Positions 45,624-54,330 of a stretch of 64,000 nucleotides of DNA are shown here, piece by piece. Source of the DNA: Alcaligenaceae bacterium CGII-47 (lineage in GTDB: Bacteria; Pseudomonadota; Gammaproteobacteria; Burkholderiales; Burkholderiaceae_B); NCBI GenBank assembly GCA_019166125.1, contig JAHTBO010000008.1:124001-188000 (forward strand), in the 5' to 3' direction. Made by a program: the position numbers and the translations under genes. Within the stretch, counting starts at the first letter, position 1; the number at the start of each line of letters is the position of its first letter. The notes below the pieces were generated by a model. It had not been told where the DNA came from and made no database searches. It was given only the letters and a program-made list of their open reading frames with translations.

Positions 45624-47201
45624 ATGTCACCCATCACCAAGCGGCGGCTCGCCGCCCTATTTCTTTTCATCTTCCCAGCTGGATTTTGGGCGTTGACCGC
45701 AAGCTGGCAAAGCGGCCTAGCCCTGAACCACTGGGATTGGGCCGCCACTTGGTATTTCATCACCGTGACGCCGCGCTACGCCGCCCTGTATATCGCACTG
45801 GGTGCAGGTTTGGTGACGGCATTGGCCCTGATTGTGTATATCGGTCGAGCCATACACACCGACGGGTTTGACGGTGCAGGTTACAAGCGGTTTATCCGGG
45901 GCACCCGGTCAGTGACTGCTGCCAAGCTCACTCGCTTGTGCAGTGAAGTCGGTCGCTACCAGGCCAACATCGCAGGCATCCCCATGCCCACCCGCCTGGA
46001 AAGCCTGCACCTGATGATCGGCGGCGCAACAGGCTCGGGCAAGTCGGTCCTGCTACGCGGCCTGGTTGCCTCGGTACGCAAGCGCACCGACCGCATGATT
46101 GTCATCGACCCCAATGGCGACATGCTTAGCAAGTTCTGGGAGCCCGGCGACATCATTCTGAATCCGTACGACTCGCGCAGCCAGGGGTGGAGTTTCTTCA
46201 ATGAAATCCGCGCCGAATATGACTGGAAGCGATTGGCACATTCCATGGTGCCGATGAGCCAGGACAAGGTCTCCGAAGAATGGAACGACTTTGGCCGACT
46301 GCTTTTACGTGAAACGGCCCGCAAACTCTATTCCGTTGATCCTGCACGAGCAAGCGTCATGGATTTGTTTCGCCTATGCACCATCGAAGACCCAATAGTG
46401 CTGAAACAATTCCTGGAAGGCACGCTGGCTGAATCTCTTTTCACCGGATCAAGCGAGGCCAGCAAAGCCTTATCGTCGGCCCGATTCGTGTTATCAAACA
46501 AGCTATCGGAGCACACCAGCATGAAAACTGGCCAATTTTCGATTCGCGATTGGCTGGATGACCCTGATGGCGGCAACCTGTACATCAACTGGCGCGAAGA
46601 TATGGCCAGCGCCATGAAACCGCTAGTCTCATCCTGGGCCGACGTTTTCATCACAGCCATATTGTCGATGCGCGAGGATCCCAACCGGCGCTGGTGGCTG
46701 TTCATTGACGAACTGGCCAGCCTGGAAGCCTTGCCCTCTCTGGAGGCAGGGCTTACCAAAGGACGAAAAAACGGGCTTCGCATTGTCGCAGGCCTGCAAA
46801 GCACGTCTCAACTGGAATACATCTATGGGCGCACGATGGCACAAACCATCCGCGCCTCCTTTCGCAACCTGGTCGTACTGGGCGGCTCCAGAACCGACCC
46901 TCAGACCGCTGAAGACATGAGCAAAAGCCTGGGCGAACACGAAGTAGAACGCCCGGAATACAGCGTTTCACGCTCAGTAGATCACCGCAACACCTCGGAC
47001 CGCGTCAATCGCACCGTCGAGCGTGTCGTCACACCATCTGAAATACAGTCGTTTGAAGAATTGACAGGCTACGTCGCTTTCGCTGGCGACCATCCCATCG
47101 CCAAAGTAGCCATGCAGTACCAGTCCTTCCCCCAGCGTACCGAACCATTTTGCGAATCGGCCCAATTGCAACGCATCACTCCACCTCGGAACATACCATG
47201 A
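45624..47201 (+). CDS. trwB: TrwB/VirD4 coupling protein
   Basis: Two N-terminal membrane helices precede the motor domain with Walker A GGATGSGKSVLLRG (about residue 132), MIVIDPNGDM, the Walker B WWLFIDELASLE and LRIVAGLQSTSQLEYIYG. At 525 residues it matches TrwB of R388. It links the relaxosome to the VirB channel and pumps DNA. The last bases overlap the relaxase ATG (ATGA). Confidence 0.95.
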   Translation: MSPITKRRLAALFLFIFPAGFWALTASWQSGLALNHWDWAATWYFITVTPRYAALYIALGAGLVTALALIVYIGRAIHTDGFDGAGYKRFIRGTRSVTAAKLTRLCSEVGRYQANIAGIPMPTRLESLHLMIGGATGSGKSVLLRGLVASVRKRTDRMIVIDPNGDMLSKFWEPGDIILNPYDSRSQGWSFFNEIRAEYDWKRLAHSMVPMSQDKVSEEWNDFGRLLLRETARKLYSVDPARASVMDLFRLCTIEDPIVLKQFLEGTLAESLFTGSSEASKALSSARFVLSNKLSEHTSMKTGQFSIRDWLDDPDGGNLYINWREDMASAMKPLVSSWADVFITAILSMREDPNRRWWLFIDELASLEALPSLEAGLTKGRKNGLRIVAGLQSTSQLEYIYGRTMAQTIRASFRNLVVLGGSRTDPQTAEDMSKSLGEHEVERPEYSVSRSVDHRNTSDRVNRTVERVVTPSEIQSFEELTGYVAFAGDHPIAKVAMQYQSFPQRTEPFCESAQLQRITPPRNIP

Positions 47202-50077
47202 TCACATACAGCATTCTGCATCGTGCCGAGGCCGACCGCAGCACCCACTACTACGGAGAACAAGCCGACGACTATTACAGCCGCGAAGGTGGCGCAGCCA
47301 TGTGGCACGGCACCGGCGCTAAGCAGCTGGGTGCTGTTGGCGAAGTAGACATTAAACGCTTTCACGCCATGCTGCGTGGTGAGTTTGGTAAAGGGGTGGT
47401 GGCTGGGCGCTCAATCCGCAAAGATTCAAAGGCCCGCGCGGGCATTGATCTGACCATCAGCGCCCCAAAAAGCATCACACTGCAAGCGCTCGTAGGCGGC
47501 GATAGCCGCCTGATCGACGTCCACGACCAGGCTGTGGCCTACACGCTAGATTACATCGAAAAGCACCTGACGCGGGCCCGCCAGAAGGAAGGCGGTAAGA
47601 CTCGTACCGAGCAGACCACCAACCTTATCATTGCCAAGTTCCGCCACGAAACCGCTCGGCCTACACCTACCGCCCCGCCTGATCCCAACCTGCATACACA
47701 CGCCGTCATCATGAATGCAACGCAACGAGCTGATGGCAGTTGGGCAGCACTGTCCAACGAGCAAATCGTGGGTTTACGCAAACTCCAGGATGCTGTTTAT
47801 ATGTCGCGGCTGGATTACCTGGTCAAAAAGCTGGGCTACGACGTGCGATACGAGAAGAACCATATCGAACTCGCCCATATCAGTCGCGCCCACATTGAAG
47901 TGTTCAGCAAACGTAGCGGCCAGGTCGAGTCCGCGCTTACGTCTCGTGGCCTGAATCGGGAAACCTCCAGCCATGCACAAAAGCAGATGCTCACGCTGGC
48001 CACGCGGCAGCAAAAGACCAAAGACTTCACCCGTGATGAGTTGCATCACAACTGGACCGCACAAGCCCGCGAAGCGGGAATCAATTTTTCACCCGAATTA
48101 TCAACATCACACCGGAAAATTGACAGCGGCCCCACTCAGCAGCGCGTCGCGGAGGCCGCACTTACCTGGGCCATTGGGCACTTATCTGAACGGGAAACCG
48201 TCATGCGCCGATCCGATCTACTGGCAACCGCTATTTCACACGCTGAAGGTGTCATTCCACCGGATGCCATCTATGACGCACTGACCCGCAGACTGGACCA
48301 GGGTCAATTATTAAGCAATCCCGCCCGCTACCACAGCACCGACAACATGTTGGCCGAACCCCGCACCCGAAAAGCGTGGGCGCAAGAAGTAGCTACCCTA
48401 CGTGGCAACGACATCAGTGCCGCCTGGCCGGTAATAGATCGGGCCATCAGCGAAGGTCGGCTTGTATTCGCCGAGCCCAGCTACGCCACCACCAAGGCGC
48501 TAGAGCAAGAACAGCGCATTATTGCGTTGGAAAAGGCGGGACGCGACAGCATGGATGCCATTATGAAACCGATACAACTCACTCCCATGCTGAACGGAAC
48601 CACACTGACCTCGGGACAGCGCGATGCCGTTGCATTGATGCTTACCAGCCGCGACCAGATTGTCGGTATCCAAGGCTTAGCCGGAACAGGCAAATCCTTC
48701 GCACTACAAAGTACCCAGCGCATCCTGAACGAGCATGGCTATTCCATGGTTGCGCTCGCGCCCTATGGGAGCCAGATCAACAATCTACGCAAAGACGGCA
48801 TTGACGCCAATACGGTCGCGTCATTTCTGACAGCCAGCGACAAGCGGCGCTTCACCGAAACGATGAGTGATAAAACAGTGGTGGTGATTGATGAAGCCGG
48901 GGCGATTCCCGTACGTCAGATGGAAAAGCTACTGACAAAAATACACGCGACTGGCGCAAAAATCGTTACCTTGGGCGATACCGCCCAGACCAAGGCCGTT
49001 GAAGCAGGCCGCGCCTTCGCGCTACTGCAAGAGCACGGTATGAAAACCGTCATCATGGGCGACATCCAGCGCCAGAAGTCCGAACGCCTGCGCCGAGCGG
49101 TAGAACTGGCGGCAACCGGTCAGGCCAGTCAATCCCTTGCACTTGTCGATCAGGTCGCCTGCATTCCCGACACCTTCACAAAAGACGAGCACGGGCAAAA
49201 GCTGCGTGACAGTTCCGCCCGTTACGACATCATCGCCCGCGAATACATCGCGCTGTCCGCTTCCGACCAGGTTGAAACGCTGATTGTGACTGGCACCAAC
49301 GCATCCCGTAAAACCATCAACACCATGATTCACCAGCATCGAGGCCTATCCGGGAAGGGTCACGCCTTTCGTCTGCTAACACGCCACGACACGACGAAAA
49401 TGCAGCGCCGCTGCGCAAAATACTATACCGTGGGCGATATCATTCAGCCCGAGCGGGATTACAAATGCGGTCTGCATCGCGGCGAGCTATACCGGGTTGT
49501 GGAGTGTGAGCGCAGCGCCGACCGCATATCGGTCATGCCGCTGCACGACCGCGCGGCCACGCCCATCGAAATCCTGCCCAAGACGATGAGCAAGTTATCC
49601 GTTTATCACACGCACGAAGCGGAACTGTCTGTAGGCGACCGCGTACGGGTCACGCGCAACAATGCGGACCTGGACCTGGTGAACGGCCAGCGCTGCGAAG
49701 TCGTCGCCGTAACGCCGCAGGCCGTCACGCTGGGAATTGGCGACCGACGAATTAACCTACCCGCCGACACACCCCTGCACCTGGATCACGCCTACGCCAC
49801 CACAGCACACAGCGCCCAAGGCATGACCTGCGACCGTGTGTTCTATAACGCTGAAAGCTTCAGCCGCACTACCGGCCAGGATACGTACTACGTCAGCATT
49901 TCGCGTGAACGCCATGCCGTTACCGTGTTTACCGACGATGTGCAGGCGCTGCCGAAGGCGGTGGATCGGGTTCCGTACAAGGGACTGGCTCATGATCTGG
50001 TCGGCCCTGCGGTAACTGGGCAGGCACATGAGGCTCAGACACTAAATCGTGAGAACGAGCATGCGATGGAACTTTGA
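47198..50077 (+). CDS. trwC: TrwC-type MobF relaxase-helicase
   Basis: The 959-residue protein has catalytic tyrosines in THYYGEQADDYYSREG, a histidine triad in PDPNLHTHAVIMN, and a C-terminal superfamily I helicase with Walker A GLAGTGKSFALQ, VVVIDEAGAI and, near the end, HLDHAYATTAHSAQGMT and YVSISRERH. It nicks oriT, stays attached to the 5' end of the T-strand and unwinds it. The start at 47198 is fixed by the coupling with trwB. Confidence 0.96.
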   Translation: MITYSILHRAEADRSTHYYGEQADDYYSREGGAAMWHGTGAKQLGAVGEVDIKRFHAMLRGEFGKGVVAGRSIRKDSKARAGIDLTISAPKSITLQALVGGDSRLIDVHDQAVAYTLDYIEKHLTRARQKEGGKTRTEQTTNLIIAKFRHETARPTPTAPPDPNLHTHAVIMNATQRADGSWAALSNEQIVGLRKLQDAVYMSRLDYLVKKLGYDVRYEKNHIELAHISRAHIEVFSKRSGQVESALTSRGLNRETSSHAQKQMLTLATRQQKTKDFTRDELHHNWTAQAREAGINFSPELSTSHRKIDSGPTQQRVAEAALTWAIGHLSERETVMRRSDLLATAISHAEGVIPPDAIYDALTRRLDQGQLLSNPARYHSTDNMLAEPRTRKAWAQEVATLRGNDISAAWPVIDRAISEGRLVFAEPSYATTKALEQEQRIIALEKAGRDSMDAIMKPIQLTPMLNGTTLTSGQRDAVALMLTSRDQIVGIQGLAGTGKSFALQSTQRILNEHGYSMVALAPYGSQINNLRKDGIDANTVASFLTASDKRRFTETMSDKTVVVIDEAGAIPVRQMEKLLTKIHATGAKIVTLGDTAQTKAVEAGRAFALLQEHGMKTVIMGDIQRQKSERLRRAVELAATGQASQSLALVDQVACIPDTFTKDEHGQKLRDSSARYDIIAREYIALSASDQVETLIVTGTNASRKTINTMIHQHRGLSGKGHAFRLLTRHDTTKMQRRCAKYYTVGDIIQPERDYKCGLHRGELYRVVECERSADRISVMPLHDRAATPIEILPKTMSKLSVYHTHEAELSVGDRVRVTRNNADLDLVNGQRCEVVAVTPQAVTLGIGDRRINLPADTPLHLDHAYATTAHSAQGMTCDRVFYNAESFSRTTGQDTYYVSISRERHAVTVFTDDVQALPKAVDRVPYKGLAHDLVGPAVTGQAHEAQTLNRENEHAMEL

Positions 50078-50554
50078 AAGCTCCATGGAGTGCTATGCAT
50101 GTATTACTGATGCATTGACGCTGTATCGGTGATGTCCGTTTACGGTCATTACGGCGTAAACATAGCGTACTGCCAATGTGTTTTTGGCGTATGGATGGTG
50201 TATCACGGATGGCCCTCGGGAATTTCGATGCAGCCTACATACATAAAGGCTACCGCTGTAGTACAAGTCTTCAAGCTATGTCACGCTTTTCAGCCATTTT
50301 GTAGCATCAGACGTAGCACTGACCGTATTTCTGGCAGTGCGTGCAAAGCCGCATGATGCAAAGATTTGCAAACCCCGAAAGGGTGCGTCATGTGTGGCAC
50401 TTTTAAGGCCACAAATGAGCGACAGCGAATTTGGGGATTTATAAGTGCCAGCCAGATCGAAGACTGGCAACGTCATCAATCAGGGACCCATCGAAGATGG
50501 GACACCAACCCTACTCAGTTGATAGCCTAGACATGGGTTCTGTCACAATAAAGC
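50078..50554. other. candidate oriT region downstream of the relaxase
   Basis: This 477-base non-coding stretch separates the transfer genes from a leading-region-like block. It has a hairpin GCACTG/CAGTGC (50316-50321 with 50335-50340) whose loop reads ACCGTATTTCTGG, faintly like the GCGTATTGTCT nic region of R388. Several GTA/TAC short palindromes lie upstream. Assignment as oriT rests on position and this weak likeness. A 46-codon frame starting MCGT at 50390 is not convincing. Confidence 0.4.
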
Positions 50555-51244
50555 ATGTGCAATCGCTATGTGACACCGACCCAGGCCGAAACTGAGAGAT
50601 TTTGGCATATTGGAAACGGGCACCAGCCTCAAGGATGGGAAGCCGCCGTTCACCCTCGTGCTGTCGGCCCATTTGTCCGAGCGCACGACATCGGGCGTGA
50701 GCTGGTAGTTGGCCAGTGGGCGCTTATCCCACACTTTGCCAAGTCGGCGAAGCTGACATATCAAACAAATAACGCTCGTTCAGAAGAATTGGCCAGCAAG
50801 GCAAGCTATCGCCAACCCTGGCAGCGCTGTATTATCCCGGCGATGTCTTTCGATGAGCCTTGCTGGGAAACCGGCCGCAATGAGTGGTGGCAATTCCGGC
50901 GGTCAGACGGTACCCCTTGGGGACTGGCCGGTCTATGGAATACTTGGACCGATCCGGCAACGGGCGAAGTACTGGAAAGCTACACGATGCTCACGATCAA
51001 TGCCGATGCACATCCGTTGATGCGTCGGATGCATAAGCCTGACCCAAATAAGTCAGCCACTGCCCAAGACAAGCGCTCAGTCATTCCAATCGAAGTGAGT
51101 GATGTCGATTGCTGGCTGACAGGCTCGGCTGAGGAGGCTAGCAGCCTCTTGCGCTTGGCGCCGGAACATATTTTCGATGCCAAGCCCTTCGAAGCGCCTT
51201 CGCTGGGCGATGCCAACGCCATCACCCAACAGGCGCTGTGGTAG
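50555..51244 (+). CDS. SRAP-domain (YedK/HMCES-like) protein
   Basis: The 229-residue protein begins MCNRY with the catalytic Cys2 and has TNNARSEEL with the Asn, FDEPCWETGRNEWW with the active Glu and MLTINADAHPLMRRMHKPDP, then KRSVIPIE. SRAP proteins crosslink to abasic sites in single-stranded DNA and protect it. This plasmid-type branch has the MHKPDP loop in place of the usual HDRMP. In the leading region it could shield incoming ssDNA. No clear ribosome site is seen. Confidence 0.85.
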   Translation: MCNRYVTPTQAETERFWHIGNGHQPQGWEAAVHPRAVGPFVRAHDIGRELVVGQWALIPHFAKSAKLTYQTNNARSEELASKASYRQPWQRCIIPAMSFDEPCWETGRNEWWQFRRSDGTPWGLAGLWNTWTDPATGEVLESYTMLTINADAHPLMRRMHKPDPNKSATAQDKRSVIPIEVSDVDCWLTGSAEEASSLLRLAPEHIFDAKPFEAPSLGDANAITQQALW

Positions 51245-51494: not shown

Positions 51495-51974
51495 TTACAC
51501 GCACATCCAGCTGCGTCCCGAACCGGCCAGATTGAACGGAATATCATCGGCCACGACAGCACCACCAGCCGTGGATGCAGGGGCTGCTGTCGTCTTATGC
51601 GCTGCAGGCTTAGCTGACGGGGTCTGACCATCTCTACCACGACCTCCAAGCATCTGCATTTGCTCCGCTACTATCTCGGTACTGTAACGGTCAGCGCCCG
51701 TTTCCTTATCCTGCCATTTCCTGGTCTTCAATCTTCCTTCTACATAGACCGCACTACCTTGGCGCAGGTACTCACCGGCAATTTCTGCCAAGCGGTTATA
51801 GAACACGATCCGATGCCATTCGGTTTCTTCTCGCTTTTCGCCGGTCGCCTTGTCTTTCGAGCTGGTCGAGGTGGCAACGGAACCGGTGCAGATCGCGGCT
51901 CCATCCGCGCTATAGCGGATCTCTGGATCACGGCCCAAGTTGCCGATGAGGATGACTTTGTTGACTGATGCCAT
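51495..51974 (-). CDS. ssb: single-stranded DNA-binding protein
   Basis: The OB fold is complete: [50 protein letters not shown] linker follows, then DDIPF, normally the extreme C-terminal tip that recruits partner proteins. Here 12 more residues ([12 protein letters not shown]) follow it, which would bury or modify the tip. Plasmid ssb genes sit in leading regions and are expressed early after transfer. Confidence 0.95.
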
Positions 51975-52052: not shown

Positions 52053-52853
52053 TTAGCTATCGCTTGATTGGTTCAGAATCTGCATAACAGCTTTTGCCTG
52101 CCAGATGGCAGCGTTATTCAACTGCCGCATCCATGCGCCGCGCGTTGGGCTCCAGCGAAAGCCGTGGCGTTTTAGAATTTCGCGCGTGGCTTTTTCCGGC
52201 TTTCCGTCGAACGTGAACATCACACGGTTTTCTTCCACGTCCTCGGCGTAGGCGTATCCCGTCCCCTGCACGCTGACCGGCACACGCTCCTGGTTGGCCT
52301 GTAATTGTTTGATCCGCTGCTGGATACGGCGAATATTCGCGTTATTGTTGGTCAAGGCATACGACGGGAAACCCAGACGCCCTGCATAATCCGGCGTGGT
52401 CAGCTTCTGTGCGCTGTCTTCCGAGTAGCCCAGATCAAGCAAAGCACCGCGTTGACCCTCTGAATCGTCCTTATGCTTACGGATTACCTGATTGATTTTC
52501 TTCATGCGGTCCTGATTCACGGTGAGCTGCTCCAGCTCGCGCGTGAGTTTGGTGATGGCATCCGGATCGTCACTGGATATGCCCCCCTTGCCAACTGATG
52601 CGGCCTTATCGGCGTAGTGCTCCGCCTTTTTCTGTAGATCAAAGGCTTTGCCATAGGTGTTATGAATCCGCTCCCTGTACTTACGGTCGCGCCCTTCGCT
52701 ATGGTGGCCGACCAAGATTGGCTGACCAAAAGGGATGGCCTCGCCCATTTCTCGTGCCTGGCCATAGGTGGCTGCGGCCTGCGTCTCGGCCTGCTGCGCC
52801 CGTGTCTCCAGTTTGGCCTTACGTTCTGCCTGCTTTTGTTCGTAATGGTTCAT
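52053..52853 (-). CDS. DUF3560 protein
   Basis: The N-terminus is a charged coiled coil followed by GQPILVGHHSEGRDRKYRERIHNT, the DUF3560 signature, and then AEHYADKAASV. The C-terminal part has FTFDGKPEKATREILKRHGFRWSPTRGAWMRQL, a compact domain found in plasmid anti-restriction-type proteins. The role is not established. It is preceded by a long conserved leader and AAGGAGCAG. Confidence 0.85.
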   Translation of the reverse strand: MNHYEQKQAERKAKLETRAQQAETQAAATYGQAREMGEAIPFGQPILVGHHSEGRDRKYRERIHNTYGKAFDLQKKAEHYADKAASVGKGGISSDDPDAITKLTRELEQLTVNQDRMKKINQVIRKHKDDSEGQRGALLDLGYSEDSAQKLTTPDYAGRLGFPSYALTNNNANIRRIQQRIKQLQANQERVPVSVQGTGYAYAEDVEENRVMFTFDGKPEKATREILKRHGFRWSPTRGAWMRQLNNAAIWQAKAVMQILNQSSDS

Positions 52854-53230
52854 GTCGCTGCTCCTTCAAATATGCGCGGTGGCGCGGTAGTGATTGCTGA
52901 CCGGGCCTGAAGATTCTTGAGCCCGTTTGTAGATTTCTGCTGCCGGGTTGTGCGCTGTGTCCATCGCGTTCTGCCGCCAGTCCTGTGAGTTCCATCGCCC
53001 TTGCCGTGCTGAATCACGCAATGACTAGTGGAAAGGGGGAAGGTTTGTAAAAGTCGCGTAGCTGCTTTTATGAACACCCCCTTGAAGCGCCGGAACGTAG
53101 TGATACAGTCGGCGTTTTAGGGCGATGGAACTATCAGGACTAGGCTTGCGGTGTCACCACGCACAACCCGGCAACAGCCCGCGCGGCGAGCGCCACCATC
53201 ACCAAGCTGGTGATCTAAATTGAAGGTAGT
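52854..53230 (-). promoter_or_regulatory. leading-region leader A (candidate ssDNA promoter)
   Basis: This 377-base non-coding leader of the DUF3560 gene is homologous to that of radC (53948-54330). Shared blocks in order are TGCTGACCGGG + GAAGATTC (52895-52918), GAGTT..CGCCCTTGCCGTGCTGAA (52986-53012), ACAGTCGGCGTTTT (53105-53118), GCCCGCGCGGCGAGCGCC (53177-53194) and the hairpin ATCACCA-AGC-TGGTGAT (53198-53214). Long structured leaders before early plasmid genes act as single-strand promoters (Frpo type) in F. Confidence 0.6.
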
Positions 53231-53413
53231 TACGCACCCGTATCCAGATTGCGCCAGCAAGCCGCTATGCCCGTCACGGCACACCGGGACGGGTTGCTTT
53301 TGTTGAAAAGGAAAAAGCGGATAACTACTTGTGCAGCAGCACAAGTCCAACTTGGCGCCGCAAAGCACGGCGACTTTGCAGGCAGGCGGGTTCTCGCCCG
53401 CCCAGCCCCAGCC
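53231..53413. other. gap between leader A and radC
   Basis: About 180 bases with no gene of either strand that I can support. It contains GCCGTGCT-like fragments and a possible weak terminator for radC, but no T run. Confidence 0.3.
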
Positions 53414-53947
53414 TTACACCTGACCTCGTTCCGCTAACGAAGTCGTGTTCTGCCCTGTCACGATGATGTGATCCAGCAAACGAACATCAACCAGCGCCAA
53501 AGCATGTTTTAAATGCCGAGTCAGCGCCAGATCGGCTTCACTGGGTTCAGGTATGCCGCTGGGGTGGTTATGCGCCATGATGATTGCAGCCGCATCCAGG
53601 CGTAGCGCGGTTTTGACGATTTCGCGGGGGTATACGCTGGCCTGCGTCAACGTGCCATGGCTCATTTCCATGTAACGGATCACCTTAAACTGGCTGTTCA
53701 GATACAGCACAGCGGCGACTTCGTGCCCCATACCGGACAATTTCGCCTGAAAATACCGTTTGACGGCGTTCGGATTTCCCATGTCTGCCCGATCACCGAT
53801 CAAGCTTTCGGCGGCGATCCGCGCGGCGGCCAATACGTGCGAATCGGTCGCGGCACGATACCGGCCTGACGGGCTGCGCACATACAGCGTTTGCCCTGCG
53901 TTCATGTTGTCATAGCCCAAAGCTGCATTGTCGTTAACGTGTTCCAT
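53414..53947 (-). CDS. radC: RadC-like JAB-domain protein
   Basis: The 177-residue protein has the RadC/MPN+ metalloprotease-like core: VAAVLYLNSQFKVIRY, the zinc motif MAHNHPSGIPEPSEADL and a terminal LLDHIIVTG. It lacks the helix-hairpin-helix part of chromosomal RadC, as mobile-element versions do. Its function is unknown despite the name. It is preceded by the second copy of the long conserved leader. Confidence 0.9.
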   Translation of the reverse strand: MEHVNDNAALGYDNMNAGQTLYVRSPSGRYRAATDSHVLAAARIAAESLIGDRADMGNPNAVKRYFQAKLSGMGHEVAAVLYLNSQFKVIRYMEMSHGTLTQASVYPREIVKTALRLDAAAIIMAHNHPSGIPEPSEADLALTRHLKHALALVDVRLLDHIIVTGQNTTSLAERGQV

Positions 53948-54330
53948 GTTCCTGTTCCTTCAAAAGCCGGTTTGTTTTCCTGCTGACCGGGGCCGAAGAT
54001 TCCGAGCCTGATCGTAGGTTTTCGGCGTTCGCAGTAATACGGTTCCTGCGGGGTTGCCGCCGTTGCCGTGAGTTCGTCGCCTTGCCGTGCTGAACTGCTG
54101 GCCGAGGCTGATGAACAGGAACGTGGAATATATGGAGGGGACCCGCCTGGCGGGGAGGAAGCCGTTTATGCCGCGAAAGCCAGGGCAGCAGACACGGATG
54201 GCGGTACAGTCGGTGTTTTGGGCGGCGCACTCATGGCAACGGGAACGACAGCCCGATATGCACTGATTGCGAATGCTGGCCCGCGCGGCGAGCGCCACCA
54301 TCGCCCGTTGGGCGATCTGATTTAATGCTG
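53948..54330 (-). promoter_or_regulatory. leading-region leader B (candidate ssDNA promoter)
   Basis: This leader of radC shares all blocks of leader A: TGCTGACCGGG (53981-53991), GTGAGTTCG (54068-54076) with CGCCTTGCCGTGCTGAA, ACAGTCGGTGTTTT (54205-54218), GCCCGCGCGGCGAGCGCC (54279-54296) and the hairpin ATCGCCC-GTT-GGGCGAT (54300-54316). The stem sequence differs from leader A at two base pairs on both arms, so pairing has been conserved rather than sequence. Confidence 0.6.

Follow-up and report, generated by a model that had tools for sequence, protein, structure and literature searches.

Candidate folded single-strand promoters ahead of DUF3560-ssb and radC-like genes in a conjugative element of an Alcaligenaceae bacterium

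Introduction

The closest described counterparts of the leaders analyzed here are the Frpo sites of plasmid F and the ssi site of ColIb-P9. Masai and Arai 1997 (as cited in PMC11541004, PMC9849209, and PMC7690428) described Frpo as a single-strand promoter that folds and acts in vitro. According to PMC9849209, F has two Frpo copies, and Frpo acts both in vitro and in vivo, F genes depending on it for their early expression in recipients; the same paper cites expression of ColIb ssb, psiB, and ardA soon after entry. Frpo promoters are described as having been found by BLAST from known and candidate sequences (PMC11541004, PMC12826799). In the account of Samuel et al. 2024 (PMC11541004), Frpo-homologous and Frpo-like single-strand promoters are general in leading regions, as would hold for the present family; the promoters of that study stem from BLAST searches with five known sequences and from candidates newly identified in four islands, which were then sought across all of its leading regions. 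Sequence overlap between those candidates and the present family is possible. Within the literature covered, single-strand promoters are detailed only for F and ColIb-type plasmids. Titles and abstract openings among the best-matching literature on Frpo, leading regions, and ICEs (preprints, most subscription journals, and supplements falling outside this coverage) contained no description of the leader family reported below.

A conjugative element with a predicted TrwC-type oriT

The window, i.e., the whole 64,000-nucleotide stretch analyzed from Alcaligenaceae bacterium CGII-47 (contig JAHTBO010000008.1), carries a conjugative element, with VirB-type genes at ∼32–42 kb (VirB names partly read from translations) and the following features.

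45624–47201: TraD-type coupling protein
47150–50077, + strand: MOBF (TrwC-type) relaxase-helicase gene (Pfam TrwC, E = 1e-70; PDB 1omh TrwC, E = 9e-77)
50372–50420, + strand: predicted oriT, hairpin ACCCCGAAAGGGT, then GCGTCATGTGT^GGCAC; a conserved noncoding block behind the MOBF relaxase gene
51495–51974, − strand: ssb (Pfam SSB), a leading-region gene
52053–52853, − strand: DUF3560 gene (Pfam DUF3560), the first behind leader 1
53414–53947, − strand: radC-like JAB-domain gene (Pfam RadC)

Among solved structures, R388 TrwC is the nearest to the relaxase of the window. Past the relaxase gene the order is SRAP (+), ssb (−), DUF3560 (−), and radC (−); a gap of 78 nt separates ssb from DUF3560, and the two genes probably share one transcript. 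The SRAP (HMCES-like) gene (50555–51244) is the first after the predicted nic and lies on the strand opposite to ssb, DUF3560, and radC; SRAP genes also occur near leader copies in two other loci (L076 and L095). Close relatives of radC with both leaders occur in genomes of Alcaligenaceae, where several of them lie on contigs of very large size, and the element is therefore probably an integrative one that resides in many hosts.

The oriT-like block is conserved in 15 sequences including the window (two of them identical) and reads hairpin, GCGTCWTGTGT, GGSAC. The window block thus has the hairpin, GCGT-N7, and predicted nic of a MOBF (TrwC-type) oriT, beside a MOBF relaxase gene. The exact R388-type nic string had no match in the window, and oriT was found via the conserved block instead; plasmids searched with that block gave no match. 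The R388 oriT sequence, present identically in NC_028464, has the same layout as the window block, and by this analogy nic is predicted between 50395 and 50396. For the MOBF relaxase of F, PMC9868005 describes a hairpin 5′ of nic. In R388 the strand continuing past nic leads to stbB, ssb, and DUF3560, and according to PMC7213743 the leading region is where the sector for maintenance and establishment lies. Because the R388 oriT shares both layout and polarity, the T-strand of the element is, by analogy, the + strand from 50396 to higher coordinates, and as such it is the template for ssb, DUF3560, and radC. All 27 leader copies, and all 15 loci holding both the oriT block and a leader (a few of these loci being near-identical), had the expected side and strand, such that the T-strand, as set by the predicted nic, is the template of the next gene. 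A 46-codon frame (MCGTFK..., 50390–50530) overlaps the predicted nic; since its start varies between ATG and TTG in relatives, some of which carry 1-nt indels, it is probably noncoding.

Two homologous leaders and their family

52854–53221, − strand (the predicted transcript direction): leader 1, candidate folded single-strand promoter for DUF3560-ssb; family-model match 53221–52849
53948–54323, − strand (the predicted transcript direction): leader 2, candidate folded single-strand promoter for radC; family-model match 54323–53943
54118–54181, + strand: apex block of leader 2, matched alone in Xanthomonas plasmids
52896–52916, + strand: conserved motif GCTGACCGG..GAAGATTC of leader 1, near the DUF3560 gene start
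53982–54002, + strand: conserved motif GCTGACCGG..GAAGATTC of leader 2

The initial annotation had described the sequences ahead of DUF3560 and radC as homologous leaders sharing at least five blocks in order. Five such blocks were found (25 nt, 80%; 22 nt, 91%; 15 nt, 100%; 18 nt, 89%; and 45 nt, 80%), and the observation is confirmed as real and larger than reported. Against the 3.45-Mb genome, the DUF3560 leader had no match besides itself other than two parts of the radC leader (E = 4e-5 and 2.6e-4). A nucleotide profile built up from both leaders gave 64 matches in the loci then under study; 58 distinct leader copies (eight duplicate loci omitted and identical copies merged) cover >60% of the profile at E < 1e-6 and reduce to 13 representatives at 82% identity. 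The further copies in related plasmids that the annotation had proposed to look for exist, with 13 on the Paraburkholderia plasmid pOLGA2 and more on other plasmids. A 46-nt leader piece used as query gave no match, and Rfam gave none in the window at the gathering threshold. Few parts of the family are as well conserved as the GCTGACCGG..GAAGATTC motif, which separates the hairpin from the start codon. Leader peptides were considered, as short ORFs cross both leaders, and were rejected because 1-nt indels between copies in the conserved motif break any common reading frame.

The 13 copies on pOLGA2, a MOBF plasmid, lie at 9.6–43.3 kb (9641–43274), all on one strand, and 12 of them have an annotated start codon, on the same strand as the copies, no more than 45 nt from their end. 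No further place in the 137 kb of pOLGA2 matched at E ≤ 1e-3. A profile of the pOLGA2 copies also matches the reverse complement of each copy, as expected of a long inverted repeat. Three matches to a nic-like string (5.2, 53.3, and 111.9 kb) were not convincing, and oriT was not found in this plasmid. Eight of the 13 copies are 75–90% alike, a likeness which suggests that promoter cassettes may have spread, or been gene-converted, within pOLGA2.

Nested long-range arms of the leaders

52937–52959, + strand: leader 1 outer arm A, pairs with 53155–53177
52979–53001, + strand: leader 1 core arm A (template arm), holding the TGAGTTC core, pairs with 53119–53141
53119–53141, + strand: leader 1 core arm B (non-template arm)
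53155–53177, + strand: leader 1 outer arm B
54059–54081, + strand: leader 2 core arm A, of which 54060–54081 pairs with 54221–54242
54221–54242, + strand: leader 2 core arm B

The main structure, absent from the initial annotation, consists of nested long-range arms. The nested 23-nt arms of leader 1 are 87 and 91% complementary, and the 22-nt pair of leader 2 is 86% complementary. Folding of the plus strand as single-stranded DNA, which had been proposed as a check, gave a clear result for leader 1 (z −6.7, equaled by 0 of 100 shuffles) and a weak one for leader 2 (z −1.3, 10 of 100). Across 18 copies, each with 20 shuffles, the mean z of DNA folds was −4.2 for the T-strand (range −8.4 to −0.2, leader 2 being among the weak at −0.9) and −3.4 for the complement, with −0.6 for 24 control segments of the window; the same test gave −6.6 for F Frpo2 and −10.5 for the ColIb site. 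As the complement folds well too, folding alone cannot choose the strand.

Conservation of pairing was assessed for 41 named pairs in an alignment of 44 chosen copies (A2), where 89.0% of cells retain the pairing, versus 33–43% with one side slid by 1–3 columns. Cells changed on both sides numbered 118, versus a shuffled mean of 41 (reached in 0 of 500 shuffles), and the covariation score was 0.244, versus 0.149 (0 of 500). The number of pairs with both-side changes was not above chance (10 versus 9.0 in shuffles, of which 166 of 500 reached 10). The change largely splits two subfamilies and thus reflects fewer events than cells. Subfamily arms are Watson-Crick with their own partner at 88 and 80% and, when crossed between subfamilies, at 38 and 47%; seven of the 58 copies, in which anchors failed, were dropped before this analysis. 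RNAalifold gave almost no structure on a sequence-only alignment of the 13 representatives and recovered part of the stem on the 13 pOLGA2 copies.

A σ70-like site in the 3′ arm

53082–53087, + strand: −35-like TTGAAG of leader 1, on the arm B side of the T-strand
53104–53109, + strand: −10-like TACAGT of leader 1, 16 nt past the −35
53001–53002, − strand: predicted RNA start of leader 1, template TT facing the unpaired GTTTTA of the other arm
54182–54187, + strand: poor −35-like AGGGCA (3/6) of leader 2, 17 nt ahead of the −10
54205–54210, + strand: −10-like TACAGT of leader 2

A TTGNNN-N15/16-TANNNT site was present on the T-strand in 18 of 24 representative copies and on the complement in none. 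This set comprised the 13 representatives, six pOLGA2 copies, three from other plasmids, and the two leaders of the window. The −10 of the 18 has the form TACNNT, with one TAAGTT; the copies without a site are L029, L012, L038, L041, L014, and leader 2, whose AGGGCA-type poor −35 is common to its close relatives. Among all 74 copies (58 + 13 + 3), the site occurs on the T-strand in 43 and on the complement in one, and the TTG-type site is absent from 31; the background in the window is 0.05–0.07 per kb. These counts are no independent tests, because the copies are homologous and the pattern was defined after inspecting them. Where the spacer is 16 nt long (13 copies), identity is 80% in the boxes and 40% in the spacers; this comparison used 17 picked copies, without L012, L038, L041, and L014, which have no TTG site, so that the count over 24 copies is the one to rely on. 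Conserved boxes with free spacers are the pattern expected for a constrained promoter.

In unconstrained minimum-energy folds the site sits in the 3′ arm. The second −10 base (A−11), which σ70 flips out on promoter opening, is predicted to be unpaired in 20 of the 24 copies and in 33 of the 43; it is paired in L050, L023, L010, and leader 2, and it is unpaired in five of the six copies lacking a −35, i.e., all but leader 2. Over the 43 copies, the predicted unpaired fraction was 0.12 at −12, 0.77 at −11, 0.07–0.19 at −10 to −8, 0.00–0.07 at −6 to −3, 0.74–0.91 at −1 to +3 (a bubble), and 0.00–0.14 at +5 to +8. A firmly duplex −35 is found mainly among the copies of pOLGA2 and ICE type, whereas leader 1 and its relatives have one that is only partly paired. 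The stem presents the boxes in leader 1, with this partly paired −35, and does so in part in leader 2, where the −35 is poor and the fold weak. As modeled, this anatomy is that of a part-melted σ70-type promoter formed by the self-folded T-strand.

The small covarying hairpin

53198–53214, unstranded: leader 1 small hairpin ATCACCA-AGC-TGGTGAT, 7 bp with a 3-nt loop, covarying
54300–54316, unstranded: leader 2 small hairpin ATCGCCC-GTT-GGGCGAT, 7 bp with a 3-nt loop, covarying
53179–53194, + strand: GC block CCGCGCGGCGAGCGCC of leader 1, conserved in most aligned copies
54281–54296, + strand: GC block of leader 2

The hairpin singled out by the initial annotation reads in each leader exactly as quoted there. 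Its arms have changed together as claimed, over a dozen stem sequences occurring at the same family position, and several family copies have there no perfect stem of at least 4 bp or one of only 4–6 bp. Over 34 unique hairpins (full-length 17-mers only, cut at a fixed distance from the neighboring GC block), 180 of 238 pair cells are Watson-Crick, versus a column-shuffled mean of 145 (reached in 0 of 2000). This hairpin is not itself the promoter; it is a neighboring element past the stem base, and ∼110 nt of the strand separate it from the −35. The covarying small hairpin is real but accessory.

Comparison with F, ColIb-P9, and R388

No homology to the Frpo sequence family (F, ColIb-P9) was detected. 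The combined family profile had no match at E ≤ 10 in the F stretch (L079), and its best E in the ColIb stretch (L080) was 5, i.e., no sequence relation. The likeness is one of layout. As in the window, Frpo1 and Frpo2 of F are leading-region T-strand hairpins upstream of ssb and further entry genes, with the T-strand as template, repeated within the element; in our reading of the F stretch, a GC-rich block is likewise flanked by a 7-bp hairpin with a 3-nt loop, both lying on the same stem side as in the leaders. Unlike pOLGA2 with its 13 copies, F has two, and the boxes that we assign there (TTGTGG-17-GACAGT) are weaker and lack the −11 gap. The ColIb-P9 ssi site likewise is a folded sequence before ssb with a GC block and a small hairpin, of which the cut stretch shows at least 6 bp, whereas its assignable boxes differ and lack the −11 gap. 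The small hairpin and GC-rich block beside the F and ColIb sites hint, by analogy, at a shared need. R388 shares with the element a TrwC-type oriT, the same polarity, and ssb-DUF3560 on the same relative strand; despite this same gene order it has no leader copy, the combined profile giving no match at E ≤ 10.

A proposed mechanism and its alternatives

We consider it very likely that each leader is a single-strand promoter active on entry into a new cell. According to this model, the T-strand would enter 5′ end first from nic (50395/50396) and fold in vivo at each leader into a long imperfect hairpin, whose 3′ arm would be the non-template strand with the σ70-like site and whose 5′ arm the template. 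The unpaired A−11 and the open start-site bubble would offer RNA polymerase a ready-made promoter, already part-melted when found. RNA copied from the 5′ arm would leave via the base of the hairpin into DUF3560-ssb (leader 1) or radC (leader 2). The boxes being on the T-strand itself, the promoter would face the gene only when folded. Second-strand synthesis would straighten the hairpin, and the boxes, then paired with their exact complement, would face away from the gene, such that expression would stop. The same RNA may also prime second-strand synthesis.

The initial annotation had offered two readings, transcription from folded T-strand DNA or structured 5′ UTRs. The former fared well: its predictions of oriT side and polarity, of copies in one orientation before leading-region genes, and of a site in the stem (a conserved σ70-like one on the T-strand, with unpaired bases at −11 and at the start site) could have failed and held, in sequence and in folding models, which supports the interpretation; the latter became the less likely of the two.

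The strongest alternative, which we regard as unlikely though deserving of attention, is that the leaders are mainly ssi/sso sites at which RNA primes the second strand in the recipient, gene expression being secondary. PMC7690428 and PMC7736820 describe priming by Frpo RNA in vitro, the structure fits both uses, and an element with many copies would be supplied with as many primers. The position of the copies just before start codons (12 of 13 within 45 nt on pOLGA2) and their uniform coding orientation (27 of 27) would be unnecessary for sites that serve priming alone.

That the leaders are ordinary double-strand promoters or operators copied with their genes is improbable. The sole − strand match in a promoter scan, GTGACA-16-GATAGT in leader 1, was rejected as not above chance (1.9 expected), the conserved boxes face away from the gene in double-stranded form, and long inverted arms with fixed unpaired positions would be superfluous.

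Structured 5′ UTRs or riboregulators, transcribed from an upstream double-strand promoter, would account for the good folding of the transcript strand (leader 1 RNA, z −9.0; mean z of complement DNA as given above). We hold them to be quite improbable, as leader 2 RNA folds no better than shuffles (z +0.4), Rfam is without a match, and the σ70-like site strongly prefers the T-strand to the transcript strand (43 versus 1 of 74). At 20 core positions of radC-leader-type copies, moreover, T-strand G·T occupies 12.1% of cells versus 0.5% for A·C, which is not the bias of RNA G·U pairing; leader-1-type copies show no G·T bias (2.5 versus 2.9%), and mutation bias could be the cause of the G·T excess. 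Finally, the leaders could lack any promoter role and be a recombination site or a repeat that spreads (REP-like or cassette). This would fit the likeness of eight pOLGA2 copies but is highly improbable given the strict orientation, the place before start codons, and the conserved boxes with free spacers.

Occurrence on plasmids and in genomes

Beyond pOLGA2, five copies were found in the 16 kb read of Burkholderia pBMUL01, two in 18 kb of a Bordetella pseudohinzii plasmid, and one in 11 kb of a Salmonella plasmid. A pOLGA2 copy used as query matched 188 plasmid records, including large plasmids of Enterobacter, Citrobacter, Klebsiella, and Pseudomonas. In the two of these that were read, one from Enterobacter (L096 4950–5290) and one from Citrobacter (L097 4950–5285), a copy carrying TTGACG-16-TACGGT stands ahead of DUF932 and ParB genes, in a module that in our reading resembles a Tn4371-family ICE. 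Leader 2 matches 46 of 200 genomes of the window’s family at E ≤ 1e-3, some via the apex block alone.

We tentatively propose, at somewhat below even confidence, that these sequences form a large family of single-strand promoters that serves conjugative elements of Burkholderiales and has no detectable sequence kinship to Frpo, marked by a σ70-like site in the 3′ arm, an unpaired A−11, and a start bubble, in which the state of the DNA would flip the direction of transcription. The 13 pOLGA2 copies would then constitute an entry regulon read before the second strand is made. The same tentative reading includes copies in ICE-like modules of enterobacterial plasmids and, by record matches alone, in Pseudomonas plasmids. 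If true, a second, sequence-unrelated family with a precise anatomy would make it testable which bases turn a hairpin into a promoter, and the anatomy could detect promoters in elements that BLAST with Frpo misses. The genes behind the hairpins (DUF3560, ssb, radC, DUF932, ParB-like, and others) would be candidate early-entry or anti-defense genes.

In Xanthomonas, 46 plasmid records match leader 2, and the 14 matches listed hit the apex block only; in one locus (L094 4680–4798) the block lies within a 31-bp perfect inverted repeat. The Xanthomonas matches were rejected as family members, given that the matches listed cover the apex block only and the one locus read is without promoter motifs. 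On a Salmonella plasmid (L004 2975–8728), two IS26 copies flank a radC gene with a family leader, and genes for fosfomycin and aminoglycoside resistance are its neighbors.
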